Source: Tamaricihabitans halophyticus | GTDB lineage: Bacteria; Actinomycetota; Actinomycetes; Mycobacteriales; Pseudonocardiaceae | Direction of reading: 5' to 3' | Length of the DNA stretch: 64,000 nucleotides | Assembly: GCF_004340875.1 (NCBI RefSeq) | Contig: NZ_SLXQ01000010.1 | Span: forward strand, 124,001-188,000 | In this document: positions 9,888 to 20,340 of the stretch, piece after piece | How positions within the stretch are numbered: position 1 is the first letter of the stretch | Layout: every line of letters begins with the position of its first letter | Notes under the pieces: model-generated | Told to the model about the DNA's origin: nothing | The model's input: the letters and a program-made list of their open reading frames with translations, nothing else | The model's database searches: none | Position numbers and translations under genes: made by a program

Positions 9888-10898
9888 CTAGTCAGGGGAT
9901 TCGCGCTCGAGCGACCGCGAGGTGGTGCCGAGTGAATCGGTCACGGAACTCGGGTCCGTTTCGACTGTCTGGCCGCCACAGTGTCGCCCCAGAAACGCCA
10001 GCGTATCCGGCACTACGGAACTGAAATACGGCCCGGTGTGCCCGCCTGGGCGAATATCGGCGACCTCGGGCTCGACCGTCGTGATGAACCGGCGCGCGCC
10101 CTCGATGAACCGGTCACGGTCACCGCACCACACGCCGAGCGGGGTAGTGCCAGTGGCTCGCGGATGCCGAAGCGGGTCAAGCGAAGCCCACTCCCGCCGG
10201 CTCCGGAACGCCTCGCGTTTCCGCATCTCCCGCCACGAGGTGAGCAACGCGGGCGCGACAACGGCGATCGCGCCGAGCGGGGAGCCACGTTCCACCCGCC
10301 GCCGGCCGTAGAGCAGTGCGCCGAACCCGCCCATGGAAGTGCCGAGACACATTTCCGGCATGCCGTCCTCGCGTAGCCCCAAGCCCCGCTCCCGCAACCA
10401 CCCGGGTAGCTCATCGAGCAGCATGGCGAGCGGATCATCTCCGTCGGGCTGCTCGTGCCAGTAGTGGTTTCCGCCGTCCACCGCGACCAGTGCGAACGGC
10501 TGCTGGCCAGGCTTCGACACCTGAGCGCGGAGCTGGTCGCCGAGTTCGGGAAGCCCGGTCGCGGCGGCGCGGCCGTTCAGTCCGTGCAGGACGAGCGCTA
10601 CCGGTAGTTGCTCGGGCGGGTCCCGATCGGGGAGATGGGTCACCAGATTGACCGTGCGGCCCCGCGCCGCGGAATAGACTTGCTCGCGGACCGTCATACC
10701 GATCCGCTGCGGCGCGCCGATCGTCGCGGATAACCGTTGGTGCCCGAAGCGGAACTCCTCCAGCGCGGTGACGGCGAAGCCTGTCGCGGCCAACACCGCC
10801 GAGCCTGCGATAGCGAGGTAGCGGCGGCGGCCAAGGACCGCGTGCCGATGCGATTCGTCGCCTTGTTCCGTGCTGTCTGTGTTGTCGGAGCTCGGCAT
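9888..10898 (-). CDS. Exported alpha/beta-hydrolase esterase, copy 1
   Basis: Protein of 336 aa of the esterase D / antigen 85-like alpha/beta-hydrolase type. A polar N-terminus with RRRY and a hydrophobic segment (about residues 27-45) suggests a Tat-like signal or membrane anchor. Catalytic features are the LHGLNG oxyanion loop, nucleophile elbow GTSMGGFG, acid in WCGDRDRFIE and His in PGGHTGPYF. Start at ATG 10898 is supported by GGGAGG upstream. It is clearly paralogous to the next gene upstream (11085-12008), sharing HYWHEQPDGDD-like and SMGGFG blocks. Natural substrate is unknown. Confidence 0.85.
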   Translation of the reverse strand: MPSSDNTDSTEQGDESHRHAVLGRRRYLAIAGSAVLAATGFAVTALEEFRFGHQRLSATIGAPQRIGMTVREQVYSAARGRTVNLVTHLPDRDPPEQLPVALVLHGLNGRAAATGLPELGDQLRAQVSKPGQQPFALVAVDGGNHYWHEQPDGDDPLAMLLDELPGWLRERGLGLREDGMPEMCLGTSMGGFGALLYGRRRVERGSPLGAIAVVAPALLTSWREMRKREAFRSRREWASLDPLRHPRATGTTPLGVWCGDRDRFIEGARRFITTVEPEVADIRPGGHTGPYFSSVVPDTLAFLGRHCGGQTVETDPSSVTDSLGTTSRSLERESPD

Positions 10899-11084
10899 GC
10901 ACCCCGCCTCCCGGTCGACTGGCACCGAGATCCATCCTGCCACGGTCGCGCCAGCCAGCCAGGCTTCCGAACGCAAGGACGCTCGGATGATCTAATCCGC
11001 GTCCCGCTCGACTCGGCCGGTTTTGTCCGTAATGGTGCGCTGTTCGGGGCTGACGACGCTTTCTCGGACTGTCGCATGTGGATG

Positions 11085-12008
11085 CTATCCGGGCTTGGGG
11101 ACGTAGTCAGTGAGAAACCCGAGAACGTCGCCGACCACCGACTGGAAGAAGTCCGGCCCGTGTGGACCAGGGCGCAGATCAGCGTGCGTCGGATCGGCTT
11201 TCGCGATGAACTGCCGAGTGCCTTCGATGAACCGGTCGTCCTCGGTGCCGCACCACACTCCTAACGGGACGTCACCGTGCGCGCCGGGATTCCGTAGCGG
11301 GTCGATCGCCGCCCATTGCGCCTCGTCCGTGAAGGCGTCTCGGCTGCGCAACTCCGACCACTCGGTGAACAGTGCGGGGGAGACCACGGCAAGGGCACCG
11401 GGCGAGTTACCGCGCTCGCGGCGTCGACGAGCGTAGACGAGCGAACCAAAGCCGCCCATGGACACCCCGGTGGCCGCCCATGGCTGGCCATCCCCGCCGC
11501 CGAGCCCGCGTTCGCGCAGCCAGCGCGGGATTTCGTCAAGCAGCATGCCCAGCGCGTCATCGCCGTCCGGGTATTCGTGCCAGTAGTTGTCCCCGCCGTC
11601 CACCGAGACGAAGGCGAACGGGCGGGTTTTGCCCTCGGCGACCGCGTCCCGCAGCTGGCCGCCCCAGCCGTGCCAGGTGACCTCCTCCGCACTGCCGCCC
11701 CTGCCGTGTAGCAGCAGGGACACCGGCAGCCCAGCTGGCGGCTGCTCCTTCGGCAGGATGGTTACCAGGTTGACGTCCTGCCCTCGGGCACGGGAATACA
11801 CCCGTTCGGTATGGGTGATGCCGGTATCCGCCGGTGGTCCGGGGTCGAACGTGCCACCCGTGGCCGAGGGCATGCTCTGGCAACCGGCGCTCAGCGCGCC
11901 AGCTCCGGCCAGTGCCACCGCGGAGGCGCTGGCCCGGAGCAGGGTTCGGCGGCTTGTACGGGTGTTCGAGTGTGGAGCTTCGCGCATAGCTGGTCGCTTA
12001 TCCCGCAT
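11085..12008 (-). CDS. Exported lipoprotein esterase, alpha/beta hydrolase, copy 2
   Basis: Protein of 307 aa (300 from the internal ATG at 11987). The N-terminus has a twin-arginine motif SRRTLLR followed by a hydrophobic stretch and a lipobox LSAGC, so it is probably a Tat-exported lipoprotein. Catalytic features are LHGRGG, nucleophile elbow GVSMGGFG, acid in [11 protein letters not shown] and a C-terminal His in GPHGPDFF. The start at 12008 overlaps the end of fdhD by 11 bp, suggesting translational coupling, although neither candidate start has a clear ribosome binding site. It is a tandem paralogue of the esterase at 9888-10898, separated by 186 bp with no other gene. Confidence 0.85.
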
Positions 12009-12870
12009 GCCGCGCGTAGCTGGGTGCCGTCGATTCTGGTGTATCGGTTTCGGGTATCCGGTGCCCTCCGGTGTAGACGTTCATCGAGGAACCGCGTAGG
12101 AATCCCACCAGGGTGATGCCGTTCTCCTCGGCCAGTTCCACGGCCAGCGAGGAGGGCGCGGACACCGCGGCCAGCATCGGAATACCCGCCATCGCCGCCT
12201 TCTGCACCAGCTCGAACGATGCCCTGCCGGAAACCAGCAGGATCTGCTCGCGCAGCGGCACCCGACCCTCCAGCACGCCCCAGCCGAGCACCTTGTCCAC
12301 GGCGTTGTGCCGGCCAACGTCTTCGCGGACGGCGAGCGCCTCGCCGGCGGTGGTGAACAACCCGGCCGCGTGTAATCCACCGGTGGAGGCGAAAACTCGC
12401 TGTCGCTCGCGCAACGTGCCGGGCAACTCGGCCAGCAGTTCGGGCGGCACGCGCAGCGCCGCCGACCCCGGGTCGAACCGGGTCCGCAACCGCACCGCGT
12501 CCAAGGCGGCCTTGCCGCACACCCCGCAGGAGGACGTGGTGTAGAAGTTGCGCTCCACGCCGACATCCGGCGGATCAACACCGGCTGCGAGCGAGACATC
12601 GAGCACGTTGTAGGTGTTCTTGCCATCCGGCCCCTTGCCGTCGCAGTACCTGGCTACCGCGATATCGGCCTTGCCGCCGATCACGCCCTCGCTGAGCAGG
12701 AAACCGTGCGCGAGTTCCACATCGTGGCCGGGCGTGCGCATGGTGACCGCGAGTGCCTTGCCGTTCACCCGCAGTTCGAGGGGCTCCTCCGCGGCAAGGG
12801 CGTCCGGCCGTTGCCGTTCACCCCGTGGACCAATCATCCGTACTGGACGACGAACGGTCACCCGTCCCAT
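11998..12870 (-). CDS. fdhD: FdhD, sulfur carrier for formate dehydrogenase maturation
   Basis: Protein of 290 aa. FdhD transfers sulfur from a cysteine desulfurase to the molybdenum cofactor of formate dehydrogenases; Cys115 and Cys118 in TSSCGVCGK are the conserved cysteines. Start at ATG 12870 has GAGGAGG 7 bases upstream. Its probable client is the FdhF/YdeP-type enzyme at 18055-20340 in this window. The gene is divergent from a winged-helix regulator, and the 130-bp gap between them holds an array of TCAAGA/TCTTGA half-sites. Confidence 0.93.
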
Positions 12871-12940
12871 GGTCAGCCTCCTCTCGCACGGCTGAATCCA
12901 TCGTCTCACCTTGCCGAGGGAGTAGGCCCGCCCGATCAAA

Positions 12941-12996
12941 TCAAGACTCTTTTATCAAGATGTCTTGCTAAATAAGTCTTGATAAAGATATCTTGA
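12941..12996. promoter_or_regulatory. Five-half-site operator array, 14-bp phased
   Basis: TCAAGA at 12941 and 12955, then TCTTGC at 12963 and TCTTGA at 12977 and 12991. Like-oriented half-sites are exactly 14 bp apart. Local palindromes include AAGATATCTT at 12985-12994 and CAAGA-TG-TCTTG at 12956-12967. The array is AT-rich and ends just before the ATG of the regulator at 13001. Confidence 0.75.
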
Positions 12997-13000
12997 GCAC

Positions 13001-13591
13001 ATGACCGATGGCGCACCGGAGCGAATCAGCGATCCGAAGAAGTTGCGGGCCCTGGCGCATCCGTTGCGCTGGCGGTTGATCGAACTGTTGGGGGTGGCGG
13101 ATCAGGCGACCGCGACCTATTGCGCCAGTGAGCTCGGCGAGAGCGTGGCGAGTTGCTCGTATCACCTCAACCAGCTCGGCAAGTACGGATTTGTCGAAGT
13201 GGTCGAATCCGAGGGCAGGGAAAAGCCGTGGCGGTTGACGAACTATGACCAGAGCTGGTCGGCCGAAGGGCTGGACCTGGAAGGTCAGCTGGCTGCCGAA
13301 GCGGTCTCCGAGGCGTTCCTCGAGCACACCTTCGATCAGTTCCGTCGACTTCAAGTCCAGCGGTCCCAGCAGCCGAAGGAGTGGCGCGAGGCCGCCGGCA
13401 TGTCCGCTGGCACCACGTTCCTGACCGCCGAGGAGCTGGCCGAGGTCAAGGGCCAGCTACGTGCGGTCATCGATCGCTATTTCGACCGGCTTGCCGATCC
13501 CGGCTCGCGACCGGCGGGTGCTCGTCCGGTGCATCTGTTCGTCAGCGCACTCGGCGCCTGGGCGCCGGAACCGGATGAGGCCCGCGAATGA
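13001..13591 (+). CDS. ArsR-like winged helix-turn-helix transcriptional regulator
   Basis: Protein of 196 aa. The N-terminal domain (about residues 12-85) has the ArsR/HTH_20 pattern: KLRALAHPLRWRLIELL, then TYCASELGESVASCSYHLNQLGKYGFVEVV, then a wing. The C-terminal half is helical and contains no recognised ligand domain. It is probably autoregulated through the phased half-sites that run up to its start codon, and it may also control fdhD in the opposite direction. The short spacing of the array to the start codon would put RNA polymerase and repressor in direct competition. Convergent with a hypothetical gene, 11 bp between stops. Confidence 0.88.
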   Translation: MTDGAPERISDPKKLRALAHPLRWRLIELLGVADQATATYCASELGESVASCSYHLNQLGKYGFVEVVESEGREKPWRLTNYDQSWSAEGLDLEGQLAAEAVSEAFLEHTFDQFRRLQVQRSQQPKEWREAAGMSAGTTFLTAEELAEVKGQLRAVIDRYFDRLADPGSRPAGARPVHLFVSALGAWAPEPDEARE

Positions 13592-14836: not shown

Positions 14837-14949
14837 ACGCGCCGGCCGTAGGGCTTTCCTCTGGCAACGGGTAGTGCCATGCTGTGCAGCCGGAAATGGT
14901 TGCGCCTTCAATGAGACGCCCCGGAACGACCTGCCACGGAGGGCAATGC

Positions 14950-16308
14950 ATGGCCGAAGGATTCCTCAGCAGATCGCGCATCGTCGCACCGAATGACTGG
15001 AACCGGTGGCTGATTCCACCCGCGGCGCTGTCCGTGCATCTGGCGATCGGTCAGGCCTACGCGTGGAGCGTGTTCAAATCACCGCTCGAGGGCACGCTGA
15101 ACCTGTCCGGGACGCAGAGCGCGCTGCCGTTTCAGCTCGGCATCGTCATGCTCGGGCTATCCGCGGCGTTCGGCGGCACCCTGGTGGAACGTAACGGCCC
15201 GCGCTGGGCAATGTTCGTGTCGCTGGTGTGCTTTTCCGGCGGGTTCCTGATTTCCGCGCTCGGCGTGGCGACGGGCCAGTACTGGCTGGTGGTGCTCGGT
15301 TACGGCGGCGTCGGCGGGATCGGGCTGGGCATCGGCTATATCTCACCAGTGTCCACACTCATCAAGTGGTTCCCGGACCGTCCGGGGATGGCGACCGGAA
15401 TCGCAATCATGGGTTTCGGTGGTGGCGCGCTGATCGCTTCGCCGTGGTCGAACCAGATGCTGGATTCGTTCGGCACGGACAGCTCGGGGATCGCGACGAC
15501 GTTCGCGGTGCACGGCGTGGTGTACGCGATCTTCATGTCGCTGGGTGTGCTGCTGGTGCGGGTTCCGGCCGATGGCTGGCGCCCCAAGGGGTGGCGGCCG
15601 GAGCAGGCGAAGTCCGGAAAGCTCATCGCCACGGGCCATGTCTCCGCGAACACGGCGCTGCGTACCCCGCAGTTCTGGCTACTGTGGATAGTGCTGTGCT
15701 TCAACGTCACCGCGGGTATCGGGATCCTGGAGAAGGCGGCGCCGATGATCGTCGACTTCTTCGCGAACACCGAAGCGCCGCTCACGGTCGCCTCGGCAGC
15801 CGGTTTCGTCGCGTTGCTCTCGCTGACGAACATGCTCGGCCGGTTCGTCTGGTCGTCCACATCGGATATCGTCGGGCGCAAGAACATCTACCGGCTCTAT
15901 CTGGGTGGTGGGGCGCTGCTCTACCTCGGGATCGTGCTCAGCGGCGACTCCTCGAAGGTGGTGTTCATCCTCGCCGCGCTGGTGATCCTTTCGTTCTATG
16001 GGGCCGGATTCGCCACCATCCCGGCATACCTGCGCGATCTGTTCGGCACCTACCAGGTCGGCGCGATCCACGGCCGGCTGCTCACCGCCTGGTCCACCGC
16101 AGGAATCCTCGGGCCGCTGATCGTCAACGCGGTGGCCGACAGTCAGGCTGCCGCGGGCAAGAGCGGGCCGGCGCTGTACACGGTCTCGCTGTACATCATG
16201 ATCGGCCTACTCGTGGTTGGCTTTGCTGCCAACGAGTTCGTCCGGCCGGTCAACCCGAAGCACCACGAGCGGTTCGCGGACAGCGAAGCGGAAGGGGCCA
16301 ACCGATGA
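14950..16308 (+). CDS. MFS transporter, OFA (oxalate/formate antiporter) family
   Basis: Integral membrane transporter of 452 aa with about 12 predicted helices. OFA features include the early block LSVHLAIGQAYAWSVFKSPLE, the loop GPRWAMFVS after helix 2, and SPVSTLIKWFPDRPGMATGIAIMGFGGGA in helices 4-5. Start at ATG 14950 with GGAGGG 6 bases upstream. Substrate is probably a small carboxylate such as formate or oxalate, given fdhD and an FdhF-like enzyme nearby, but specificity cannot be read from sequence. Its stop overlaps the start of a 42-aa gene (ATGA), a pairing known for this transporter type. Confidence 0.88.
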   Translation: MAEGFLSRSRIVAPNDWNRWLIPPAALSVHLAIGQAYAWSVFKSPLEGTLNLSGTQSALPFQLGIVMLGLSAAFGGTLVERNGPRWAMFVSLVCFSGGFLISALGVATGQYWLVVLGYGGVGGIGLGIGYISPVSTLIKWFPDRPGMATGIAIMGFGGGALIASPWSNQMLDSFGTDSSGIATTFAVHGVVYAIFMSLGVLLVRVPADGWRPKGWRPEQAKSGKLIATGHVSANTALRTPQFWLLWIVLCFNVTAGIGILEKAAPMIVDFFANTEAPLTVASAAGFVALLSLTNMLGRFVWSSTSDIVGRKNIYRLYLGGGALLYLGIVLSGDSSKVVFILAALVILSFYGAGFATIPAYLRDLFGTYQVGAIHGRLLTAWSTAGILGPLIVNAVADSQAAAGKSGPALYTVSLYIMIGLLVVGFAANEFVRPVNPKHHERFADSEAEGANR

Positions 16309-16433: not shown

Positions 16434-16458
16434 CCGGTCATCCGGTTAGGGTGTGCGG

Positions 16459-18015
16459 ATGGCTGCAGGCGCCGAAGCGTATGACGTTGTCGTAGTCGGT
16501 GGCGGGCACAACGCGCTCGTCGCCGCCGCATACCTGGCCAAGGCCGGCCGTTCGGTACTGGTCGTGGAACGCCGCGCCGAGGTGGGCGGCGCGGCGGTCA
16601 GCACCGAACCGTTCGCCGGCGTTCCGGCACGACTTTCCCGTTACTCGTATCTGGTGAGCCTGCTGCCGGACCAGATCGTGGCTGATCTCGGGTTGCGGCT
16701 GACGCTTCGCTCGCGCGCGGTGTCCTCGTACACCCCGCGGCGGGACGGCACCGGGCTGCTGGTGACCGGCGGCGACGAGGATGCCGCCACCTTCCGCGCG
16801 GTCACCGGCTCGGAGCGCGATTACCAGAACTGGCAAGCGTTCTACGCCGATCTTGGCGCGCTGGCGAAGGTACTGGCGCCGAGTCTGCTCGAGCCGCTGC
16901 CGAGGCGCGCACGGCTGCGCGCGGCGGTCGTCGGCGCGGCGGGGGAGCGCACCTGGACGCGGGTGTTCGAGCAACCGCTTGGCGCCACGCTCGAGGAGCT
17001 GTTCACCGACGACCTGGTGCGTGGGGTGGTCGCCACGGACGGGCTGATCGGTACACATACCTCGCTGCGCGACCCCGGTCTGCTCGCGAACCGTTGCTTT
17101 CTTTACCACGTGGTGGGCAACGGAACTGGGGACTGGCGGGTGCCGGTCGGTGGCATGGGGGCGGTGACCGCGGAGCTGGCGCGGGTCGCGCGGGACTCCG
17201 GCGCGCGGATCGTCACCGGTGCGGAGGTGACCAGTGTCGAAGTCGATGGTCGGGATGCCGAGGTGCACTATCGAGTAGGCGATACGGCCCATCGAGTCGG
17301 CGCGCGACGGGTACTCAGTGGTGTCGCGCCCGCCGAGCTCGATCGGTTGCGCGGTAGGCAGTCCGCCATTCCCGCAGGGGCGCAGCTGAAGGTCAATATG
17401 CTGCTGCGCAAGCTGCCTGAGCTTGCCGACGGCACCGACCCGCGAGCGGCGTTCGCCGGTACCTGCCATCTGAACGAGTCGTACCGCCAGCTGGAGAACG
17501 CCTACGCGCGGAGCGCGGCGGGGCAACTGCCAGATGAGCTGCCGGGCGAGATGTACTGTCACTCGCTGACCGATCCGTCGATTCTCGGCCCGGAGTTGGC
17601 CGAGCGCGGTTGGCAGACCCTCACCCTGTTCGGGCTCCACCTGCCGGCTGGGCTGTTCGAGGCGGACAACGCAGGGCTGCGGGATCGACTGGTCGCCGGG
17701 TACTTCGCGGCGCTGAACGAGTACCTTGCCGAACCGATCGAGGACTGCCTTGCCCGCGATACGCGGGGGCGGCCGTATGTGGAGGCCCGCAGCCCGCTCG
17801 ACCTTGCCGAGGAGCTGCGGATGCCCGGTGGGCACATCTTCCACGGTGACCTGGGGTGGCCCTATGCGGCCGAGACGGAGGTCGCGGATCCCTGGGGTGT
17901 GCGCACTGATACCGACAACCTGTTGCTGTGCGGTAGCGGTGCCCAGCGCGGCGGCGGGGTCAGTGGTATCGCCGGCCACAACGCCGCGATGGCCGTACTG
18001 CACGACTCCCGTTAA
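16459..18015 (+). CDS. Phytoene-desaturase-like NAD(P)/FAD-dependent oxidoreductase
   Basis: Flavoprotein of 518 aa related to the phytoene desaturase / PYROXD2 group. The FAD-binding motif VVVVGGGHNALVAAAYLAKAG is at about residues 10-30 and is followed by VVERRAEVGGAA. The C-terminal FAD block reads LLCGSGAQRGGGVSGIAGHNA. Start at ATG 16459 is preferred over the GTG at 16453 because AGGG lies 7 bases upstream of it. No carotenoid genes surround it, so a carotenoid role is not implied; substrate unknown. It follows the small transporter subunit by 25 bp and may be in the same transcript. Confidence 0.85.
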   Translation: MAAGAEAYDVVVVGGGHNALVAAAYLAKAGRSVLVVERRAEVGGAAVSTEPFAGVPARLSRYSYLVSLLPDQIVADLGLRLTLRSRAVSSYTPRRDGTGLLVTGGDEDAATFRAVTGSERDYQNWQAFYADLGALAKVLAPSLLEPLPRRARLRAAVVGAAGERTWTRVFEQPLGATLEELFTDDLVRGVVATDGLIGTHTSLRDPGLLANRCFLYHVVGNGTGDWRVPVGGMGAVTAELARVARDSGARIVTGAEVTSVEVDGRDAEVHYRVGDTAHRVGARRVLSGVAPAELDRLRGRQSAIPAGAQLKVNMLLRKLPELADGTDPRAAFAGTCHLNESYRQLENAYARSAAGQLPDELPGEMYCHSLTDPSILGPELAERGWQTLTLFGLHLPAGLFEADNAGLRDRLVAGYFAALNEYLAEPIEDCLARDTRGRPYVEARSPLDLAEELRMPGGHIFHGDLGWPYAAETEVADPWGVRTDTDNLLLCGSGAQRGGGVSGIAGHNAAMAVLHDSR

Positions 18016-18054: not shown

Positions 18055-20340
18055 TTATTCCAGGCGGATCACGATGGACTTGGAGGTCGGCGTGTTCGAC
18101 TTGTCCGCCACCGAGTTCAGCGGCACCAGCGCGTTCGCTTCCGGGAAATAGGCGGCCGCGCAGCCCTGCGCGGTCGGATAGTGCACCACCCGGAAACCCT
18201 TGGCGCGCCGCTCGTGGTCCTCCCACTCGCTGATCAGATCGACCAGCTGGCCATCGGCAACACCCTGCGCGGCCGCGTCGTCCGGATTGACCAGTACGAC
18301 CCTGCGGCCGTCCTCGATGCCACGGTAGCGATCGGACAACCCGTAGATTGTGGTGTTGTACTGATCATGGCTGCGTAGTGTCTGCAACAGCAGCCTGCCT
18401 TCGGGGATCTCCGGCGCGGTGAACTCGTTGACCACGAAGTTCGCCTTGCCGGTCGAGGTTCCGGTGAACTCCCGCGAATCCCTCGGCGGATGCGGCAGCA
18501 CGAAGCCATCCGGCTGGCGCACCTTCGCGTTGTAATCGGTGCAACCCGGAACCACCTTGGCGATCCGATCCCGGATCCGGTCATAGTCGGCTTCGAACTC
18601 ACCCCACGGAACCGCGTGATCCGCGCCGAGCAACTCCCTGGCAAGTCCACAAAGGATGGAAACCTCGGACCGCAGTTGCTCGCTTGCCGGATCCAGCCGG
18701 CCGCGTGAGGCGTGCACCGCGGACATCGAATCCTCCACGGTCACGAACTGCTCGCCGCCGGCCTGCTGGTCACGTTCGGTGCGCCCGAGCGTCGGCAGGA
18801 TCAGCGCCTCGGTGCCATGCACGACATGCGAGCGGTTCAACTTCGTCGAGACATGCGCGGTCAGCTGGCAGGACCGCAGCGCGGCGGAACTCGCGTCAGT
18901 GTCCGGGGTCGCGGACACGAAGTTACCGCCCATGCCGAGGAACACCTTGCCCTCGCCCGCGCGCATCGCGTTGATCGCCTGCACCGTGTCATACCCGTGC
19001 TTGCGAGGTACCGGGATACCGAACTCCGTCTCAAGCGCGGAAAGGAAGGTCTCCGGCATCTTCTCCCAGATGCCCATCGTGCGGTCACCCTGCACATTGG
19101 AATGCCCGCGCACCGGGCACAACCCCGCGCCCGGTTTGCCGATCATGCCACGCAGCAGCGCGAGATTGGAGATCTCGGTAATCGTCGGCACCGAATGCTT
19201 GTGCTGGGTAAGCCCCATCGCCCAGCAGTAGATCGTCCGCTCGGAGTCAGCGATCATGCGCGCCACCCGGACGATCTGTTCCTTGCTCATCCCGGTTGCC
19301 GCGAGTACCCGGTCCCAGTCCAGCTCGCGTACTGATTCGGCGTATTCCGCGAAGCCGTGCGTGCGCTCGGCGACGAATTCCTCGTCCACGATGGTGCCCG
19401 GCGCCGCCTGCTCCCAGGACACCAGCAAATGCCCGATGGCCTGGAACAGCGCGAGGTCGCCGCCCAGCTTGATCTGGCAGAACTCGTCAGCCAACTGGGT
19501 GCCCTTGCCGACCACGCCGCGTACGTTCTGCGGGTTCTTGAACCGCAGCAGCCCAGCTTCGGGCAGCGGGTTGACCGCGATGATCCGCGCGCCATCGCGC
19601 TTGGCTTCCTCGAGCGCGGAGAGCATCCGGGGATGGTTCGTGCCGGGGTTCTGCCCGATGACGATGATCAGATCCGCCTCGCCAATATCGGCGAGGCTGA
19701 CCGAGCCCTTGCCGATACCGGTCGTCTGGGACAGCGCGGCGCCGGAGGACTCGTGGCACATGTTGGAACAGTCCGGCAGGTTGTTCGTGCCGAACGAGCG
19801 CACCAGGAGTTGGTAGAGGAACGCGGCCTCGTTGCTGGTGCGACCGGAGGTATAGAAGATCGCGTCGTCCGGGCTCGGCAAGGCGCGCATCCGACTGGCC
19901 AGCAGTTCCAGCGCACCGTCCCAGGAGATTGGCTCGTAATGGCTCGCACCGGCCCGCAGCACCATCGGCTCGGTCAGCCTGCCCTGCTGGCCGAGCCAGT
20001 AGTCGGTTTTGTCGGCGAGCTCGGCCACACTGTGCGTGGCGAAGAACTCCCTGGTCACACGGCGCTTGGTGGCTTCCTCGGCCACCGCTTTCGCGCCGTT
20101 TTCACAGAACTCGGCGAGCTTGCGGTGCCCCTGCGCTTCCGGCCAGGCGCAGCCAGGGCAGTCGAACCCCTCGCGCTGGTTCAGCAGCCGCAGCGTGCGC
20201 ACGGTGCGGCCGGGCCCCATCTGTTCGAGTCCCCGGCGAAGCGACACCGTGACACCGGTGACGCCCGCCGCCCAGTCTTTCGGCTTGCCGACTTCGAGTT
20301 CGGTCTCATCGATGTCGTGCCGCGGTGCCTTACGAGCCAT
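18055..20340 (-). CDS. FdhF/YdeP-family molybdopterin oxidoreductase
   Basis: Protein of 761 aa of the molybdopterin oxidoreductase superfamily, most like the formate dehydrogenase alpha-like group that includes E. coli YdeP. The likely molybdenum ligand is the Cys in NMCHESSG. Molybdopterin-binding blocks such as IGQNPGTNHPRML, CPVRGHSNVQGDRTMG and GMGGNF are clear, and the C-terminal dinucleotide domain has LLLQTLRSHDQYNTTIYG. The N-terminus has only one CPGC pair instead of the four-cysteine [4Fe-4S] motif of true formate dehydrogenases, so electron transfer differs. Its maturation factor FdhD is encoded about 5 kb away. Formate as substrate is not proven. Confidence 0.88.
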   Translation of the reverse strand: MARKAPRHDIDETELEVGKPKDWAAGVTGVTVSLRRGLEQMGPGRTVRTLRLLNQREGFDCPGCAWPEAQGHRKLAEFCENGAKAVAEEATKRRVTREFFATHSVAELADKTDYWLGQQGRLTEPMVLRAGASHYEPISWDGALELLASRMRALPSPDDAIFYTSGRTSNEAAFLYQLLVRSFGTNNLPDCSNMCHESSGAALSQTTGIGKGSVSLADIGEADLIIVIGQNPGTNHPRMLSALEEAKRDGARIIAVNPLPEAGLLRFKNPQNVRGVVGKGTQLADEFCQIKLGGDLALFQAIGHLLVSWEQAAPGTIVDEEFVAERTHGFAEYAESVRELDWDRVLAATGMSKEQIVRVARMIADSERTIYCWAMGLTQHKHSVPTITEISNLALLRGMIGKPGAGLCPVRGHSNVQGDRTMGIWEKMPETFLSALETEFGIPVPRKHGYDTVQAINAMRAGEGKVFLGMGGNFVSATPDTDASSAALRSCQLTAHVSTKLNRSHVVHGTEALILPTLGRTERDQQAGGEQFVTVEDSMSAVHASRGRLDPASEQLRSEVSILCGLARELLGADHAVPWGEFEADYDRIRDRIAKVVPGCTDYNAKVRQPDGFVLPHPPRDSREFTGTSTGKANFVVNEFTAPEIPEGRLLLQTLRSHDQYNTTIYGLSDRYRGIEDGRRVVLVNPDDAAAQGVADGQLVDLISEWEDHERRAKGFRVVHYPTAQGCAAAYFPEANALVPLNSVADKSNTPTSKSIVIRLE

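Follow-up and report, generated by a model that had tools for sequence, protein, structure and literature searches.

A conserved array of 14-bp palindromic units precedes an ArsR-like regulator gene and is predicted to be its operator

A phased array lies in front of a regulator gene

We analysed a 64,000-nucleotide stretch of the Tamaricihabitans halophyticus genome (NCBI RefSeq assembly GCF_004340875.1, contig NZ_SLXQ01000010.1, positions 124,001 to 188,000 of the forward strand), hereafter called the window. Beside the fdhD gene, four abutting 14-bp units fill positions 12941-12996, each a degenerate version of the palindrome TCAAGANNTCTTGA (TCAAGA-NN-TCTTGA), and 4 bp separate the end of this array from the start codon (ATG) of a regulator of the HTH_20 (ArsR-like) type. 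The features of the locus are as follows.

11998-12870, - strand: fdhD, the divergent neighbour, starting 70 bp left of the array and probably not its main target
12941-12954, + strand: predicted operator unit 1, TCAAGACTCTTTTA; right half degenerate, 3 of 7 complementary pairs
12955-12968, + strand: predicted operator unit 2, TCAAGATGTCTTGC; 5 of 7 dyad pairs
12965-12970, + strand: tentative -35-like TTGCTA, read by eye, across units 2 and 3 and 18 bp from the -10-like hexamer
12969-12982, + strand: predicted operator unit 3, TAAATAAGTCTTGA; left half degenerate, 4 of 7 pairs
12983-12996, + strand: predicted operator unit 4, TAAAGATATCTTGA; 6 of 7 dyad pairs, holding the -10-like hexamer
12989-12994, + strand: -10-like TATCTT at positions 7-12 of unit 4
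13001-13591, + strand: HTH_20/ArsR-like regulator of 196 aa, assigned by HTH_20 domain match and structure model

A first-pass annotation had described five half-sites here, and both their positions and their spacing were confirmed: TCAAGA occurs at 12941 and 12955, TCTTGC at 12963 and TCTTGA at 12977 and 12991, exactly 14 bp apart within each orientation. These are the well-preserved halves of the four palindromic units, which that annotation had missed. AAG and CTT half-site cores take turns every 7 bp, and a second dyad, CTT-N4-AAG, is thereby centred between neighbouring units.

The periodicity exceeds chance. Within the 70-bp stretch 12931-13000, 59% of positions matched themselves at lag 14 and 48% at lag 28, twice the period, with values of at most 36% at the other lags from 1 to 27. 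Allowing up to two mismatches, TCAAGANNTCTTGA had four matches in the window, three of them inside the array (0.61 expected). A lattice of six half-sites, searched with up to three mismatches, had the 12941-12996 array as its sole locus in the 6.4-Mb genome (two overlapping matches), and its reversed control matched nowhere in that genome. We also compared the regions upstream of 30 of the 43 HTH_20 matches in the same genome: the highest lag-14 value among those listed for the other upstreams was 0.50, compared with 0.69 for the array locus, and none of the 29 others examined (of 42) carried a comparable lag-14 signal.

A degenerate two-unit pattern (up to three mismatches) was found at five places in the genome, of which three overlap at the array with one mismatch. 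The two further places, with two and three mismatches, are at chance level given eight control matches, and a wider regulon based on this pattern was rejected. Separately, a perfect TCAAGAGTTCTTGA dyad lies at G000:C15:69082-69095 (L003), between a TetR-like gene (identified by eye) and a divergent gene; it is perhaps the TetR-like protein's own site and was not counted as a target of the array, as its 3-kb stretch holds no homologue of the 13001-13591 regulator.

The regulator has an ArsR-type winged-helix fold

The regulator matched the HTH_20 domain with 31.3 bits (Pfam curated cut-off 27), which places it in the HTH_20 branch of the ArsR/SmtB superfamily; its score against the HTH_metalloreg model, 32.3 bits, fell short of the cut-off of 55 for metal-sensing ArsR proteins. 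Unlike metal-sensing SmtB/ArsR regulators, it is also without the ELCVCD metal box, which was absent from the alignment of its homologues when read by eye.

Searches with the structure model (mean pLDDT 90) by Foldseek and VIA-align recovered a winged-helix fold like that of CzrA, SmtB and CadC. The top solved match, 4g6q (Z 12.3, 163 aligned residues, rmsd 4.2), spans almost the full length of the regulator and is titled as a protein of unknown function. It is tied by Z with CzrA (Z 12.2, 84 aligned, rmsd 2.8) and CadC (Z 11.7, 84 aligned, rmsd 2.8), which align about half as many residues, and was followed by SmtB (Z 11.4, 83 aligned, rmsd 2.9). A sequence search of solved structures with a first alignment gave no match at a threshold of 0.001; with a larger alignment and a threshold of 1 it returned 21 sequences, the best an ArsR protein (2.7e-4) and the rest mostly ArsR-type.

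The 14-bp lattice is conserved upstream of homologues

To assess conservation, homologues were chosen by protein alone, without use of the array. Among 150 family genomes, 56 encode a regulator homologue at E <=1e-20, paralogues counted in, and the conservation set comprised the best 80 of 217 encoding stretches. These 80 loci span Pseudonocardiales, Micromonosporaceae, Catenulispora, Streptomyces, Microbacterium, Acidimicrobiales and others, and they are not independent of one another because many come from Lentzea and Streptomyces.

Every one of the 80 upstream regions had a higher array score (4-13) than any of 1,853 control stretches taken at these loci (maximum 3), so the earlier proposal that the spacing would be conserved at orthologous loci survived a refutation test set beforehand. 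Scores at the low end, 4-5, occurred in 12 of the 80; composition-keeping shuffles reached 4 or 5 in 116 of 40,000 cases and never went higher. For 78 loci, none of 500 shuffles of the locus itself scored as high; the other two were reached by three (L074) and two (L058) of 500.

The spacing itself hardly varies. When exact dyad pairs separated by no more than 45 bp were counted (104 pairs), 102 were spaced by 14 bp (69), 28 bp (27) or 42 bp (6), and two otherwise. Including the window, 81 loci carry arrays of two (27 loci), three (36), four (15), five (2) or six (1) units, the counts of five and six including weak cells. The four-unit array of the window is thus one form within a range of two to six, and three-unit arrays are the most frequent class. 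An unusually long array was seen in Microtetraspora glauca (L115), with altered half-sites, CTTGTAAACGA repeats, a 14-bp period and up to six cells.

Strict two-unit sites mark the regulator family

Complementarily, we searched from the DNA side with a strict two-unit pattern, MAAGRNNYCTTKNNMAAGRNNYCTTK, which occurs at 24 places in 23 of the 150 family genomes, while its reversed control had 0 matches in each of them. In all 23 loci examined, the gene immediately downstream encodes a member of the 13001-13591 regulator family, and hmmsearch divided these members into 14 orthologue-like (at least 256 bits) and 9 paralogue-like (93-119 bits) proteins; the 24th place is upstream of a regulator paralogue. 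Outside the family sample the strict pattern is rare, as it was found in one of 296 genomes of a phylum-wide sample, again adjoining a member of the regulator family (108.8 bits). The pattern undercounts arrays, because the array of the window itself is missed (its unit pairs need one mismatch).

As members of the regulator family stand at all strict-pattern places, it seems that the array acts on the regulator's own gene and on anything co-transcribed with it; targets with one unit may exist elsewhere. The repeats might instead be bound by some other factor, or form a structural DNA element whose place ahead of the gene is coincidental; the operator role is, after all, a prediction, and the array stretch is AT-rich (34% G+C, compared with 67% in the window). 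We regard this as highly improbable, since each of the 24 places in the family sample and the one in the phylum sample is upstream of the regulator family, since this link holds across different gene neighbourhoods, and since the six-half-site array is unique in its own genome.

The array usually keeps a fixed register to a -10-like hexamer and the start codon

The regulator-proximal unit usually carries a -10-like hexamer in a fixed phase. TAnnnT was present at positions 7-12 of the cell ahead of the start codon in 69 of 81 loci and missing in 12, and this hexamer position ends 6-7 nt ahead of the start codon in 68 of 81; in the window, the start codon follows 6 nt past the hexamer, with no Shine-Dalgarno-like motif. 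The distance from the end of the array to the start codon is 4 or 5 nt in 47 of 81 loci; in another 21 it is 18 or 19 nt, longer by one cell, so that the register is fixed in 68 loci and broken in 13. Some of the exceptions in register or TAnnnT could be traced by eye to automatic start-codon assignment. One of the 81 loci showed a Shine-Dalgarno-like motif.

A stricter sigma-70 scan returned no promoter at its threshold, the TTGCTA at 12965-12970 included, and the promoter call is thus based on register and conservation rather than on a strong consensus. The layout is the one expected of leaderless promoters in actinobacteria. The regulator mRNA is, on this layout, probably leaderless, with its -10 box within the last operator cell.

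The first-pass annotation had seen the array as a bidirectional switch between fdhD and the regulator gene. In the window, fdhD does begin just 70 bp left of the array, and counts by tblastn in the 81 loci place fdhD in the regulator's flanks (about 6 kb at most) in 30 and a molybdopterin oxidoreductase nearby in 25, so the genes may be functionally linked. However, fdhD is the immediate divergent neighbour in only 7 of the 81 loci, and the array is present with or without it. The -10-like TA step is enriched solely in the regulator-proximal unit (T7 0.82, A8 0.65, compared with 0.15 and 0.46 in the first unit), which indicates that the promoter faces the regulator and not fdhD. Other homologues instead have an MFS_3-type exporter (14 of 81) or a TPR/S41-like gene (5 of 81) directly downstream, an FAD protein is encoded nearby in 32 of the 81, and the array is kept across these differing neighbourhoods. 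The proposed switch is accordingly not supported by the comparison, and we consider it quite unlikely. Long open frames had also raised the suspicion of regulator-MFS fusions; these proved to be shadow frames, since what they encode ahead of the MFS domain is not the regulator.

The array as a predicted autoregulatory operator

We think it likely that the 56-bp array is the regulator's own operator and serves cooperative autorepression by stacked dimers. Four head-to-tail 14-bp dyads would overlie the core promoter of the regulator; the last dyad would contain the -10 hexamer, and transcription would start at or beside the start codon. Winged-helix dimers would occupy one dyad each, with neighbours aiding one another; a 14-bp step amounts to about 1.33 helical turns, and successive dimers, turned by about 120 degrees, would be able to abut. 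The resulting coat of dimers, reaching from the -35 region to the start, would block RNA polymerase and the gene would repress itself, until a ligand held by the C-terminal half of the protein releases repression. The loading of several dimers in a cooperative manner, which the first-pass annotation had suggested, is what we infer from sites that are both phased and conserved. The poor palindromy of units 1 and 3 in the window (3 and 4 of 7 pairs) counts against this explanation, as do the negative promoter scan, the 12 low-scoring upstream regions, the loci that lack the in-phase TAnnnT or break the register, and the paralogues that do not have the exact lattice.

As for the ligand, a small organic molecule seems likelier than a metal, given the exporter context and the parallel with LugJ, an exporter repressor that is released by lugdunin and whose dimer was modelled on 4g6q.

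The alternation of half-sites allows a second reading, namely that the regulator binds the register CTTK-NN-MAAG between the units, in which case the module would be a roughly 28-bp double site that approaches the classical 12-2-12 repeats of SmtB/ArsR operators, and not a row of single sites. Both dyads are present in the array, and the accessible description of SmtB/ArsR promoters gives them one or two 12-2-12 inverted repeats (PMC8790569). The operators of paralogues point the same way: in a comparison of 20 of the paralogue places found, six upstream regions had the exact lattice, the remainder being degenerate or without one, and these six operators form two-unit palindromes of about 36 bp centred between the units, with 14-18 of 18 pairs matched (18 of 18 in L180). 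Yet the ends of the arrays tell against this register. Among 76 exact runs of at least two half-sites, 45 run from AAG to CTT, as whole 14-bp units predict, compared with 5 of the opposite kind and 26 of odd number; likewise, the three-unit arrays of 36 of the 81 loci cannot be divided into whole double sites. We therefore hold the between-unit register to be unlikely and, because the runs end at whole units, favour AAG-N4-CTT as the predicted binding unit. The paralogue palindromes suggest a minimal two-dimer module, which may have been enlarged by 14-bp steps in the regulator clade. In one paralogue upstream (L187), the best self-match was at lag 13 and not 14, a possible array variant with another pitch.

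The half-site type differs among loci together with one residue of the protein. Residue 57 directly follows the nearly invariant SVASCSYHL of the regulator homologues. All 14 loci whose half-sites are AAAG-type have Arg at this residue, and 45 of the 50 with CAAG-type half-sites have Asn or Gly, 16 of the 80 loci being of mixed half-site type and omitted from the count. This covariation follows phylogeny and is confounded by it. The array offers a proposed operator code for this regulator clade, the nearest solved relative of which carries an annotation of unknown function.

More tentatively, we can picture an ArsR-type clade whose regulators wrap their own leaderless promoters in a short helical dimer filament. 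With a 14-bp pitch, it would fit three dimers into four turns of DNA; the strength of repression could be tuned in evolution through the number of units, and the -10 box and start codon would be fixed within the lattice. We hold this picture to be less secure than autorepression as such. The arrays offer a natural series of two to six equally pitched units before one regulator family, in which unit number could be tested against the steepness of autorepression. Leaderless transcripts, with promoter, operator and start codon in one register, are predicted as well.

Comparison with known systems

TubR, an ArsR-like protein that binds centromeres on tandem repeats, resembles the array described here. 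CmtR of Mycobacterium tuberculosis reportedly binds cooperatively to multiple operator sites and represses itself; the proposed regulation would be similar, as ArsR-type autorepression through several sites, a likeness that is taken from a title-level description of CmtR and leaves phasing aside. As in SmtB/ArsR operators generally, palindromic sites predicted for winged-helix dimers lie near or over the core promoter, and cooperative binding is reported for members of that family in the available text of PMC8790569 and PMC5658604. In contrast to the one or two 12-2-12 repeats given there, however, the arrays here consist of 2-6 abutting 14-bp units.

LugJ of Staphylococcus lugdunensis is, in the portion of the report available, a winged-helix repressor with a dimer modelled on 4g6q; it binds a palindrome, with another shifted band appearing as protein is raised, its targets are exporter and immunity genes, and lugdunin releases it (PMC11980582). 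The likeness to our regulator lies in the winged-helix fold, in the palindromic site (predicted for ours) and in 4g6q, LugJ's modelling template and the top match of our model; unlike LugJ, for which that portion describes no tandem array, our regulator is preceded by one.

Two further systems share the tandem arrangement, as far as the accessible parts of their reports go. BldC of Streptomyces, also a winged-helix protein, shows cooperative loading onto tandem repeats whose number varies (PMC5859096), but it is MerR-like and its protomers sit head to tail on 9-bp direct repeats, whereas the units here are 14-bp palindromes and a domain search of the regulator gave no MerR family match. The Omega/ParB protein of pSM19035 binds contiguous 7-bp heptads of varied orientation (PMC9499535), similar to the present array in its contiguous short sites, 7-bp element and varied orientation; it is, however, a ribbon-helix-helix protein at a plasmid centromere, and the regulator has another fold. 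We found no description of an array of the present kind in the open-access literature, an absence that weighs little, as most subscription papers were outside the scope of the search. The conserved architecture is real, and on sequence evidence we predict that it is an operator and an apparently new variation on ArsR-type autoregulation.

Other genes around the array

The window holds further genes near the regulator. A molybdopterin oxidoreductase homologue runs from 18058 to about 20343 on the - strand (tblastn match 18058-19500, the rest by eye), in one neighbourhood with an MFS transporter and an FAD protein (14884-16308 and 16453-18015) and with fdhD (11998-12870). The MFS transporter narrowly missed the cut-off of the L-lactate model and also fell short of those of the oxalate/formate models. 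Parts of this neighbourhood recur near the regulator in other genomes. Finally, two putative esterase genes, both matching Pfam Esterase, lie side by side on the - strand at 9888-10976 and 11085-12008.
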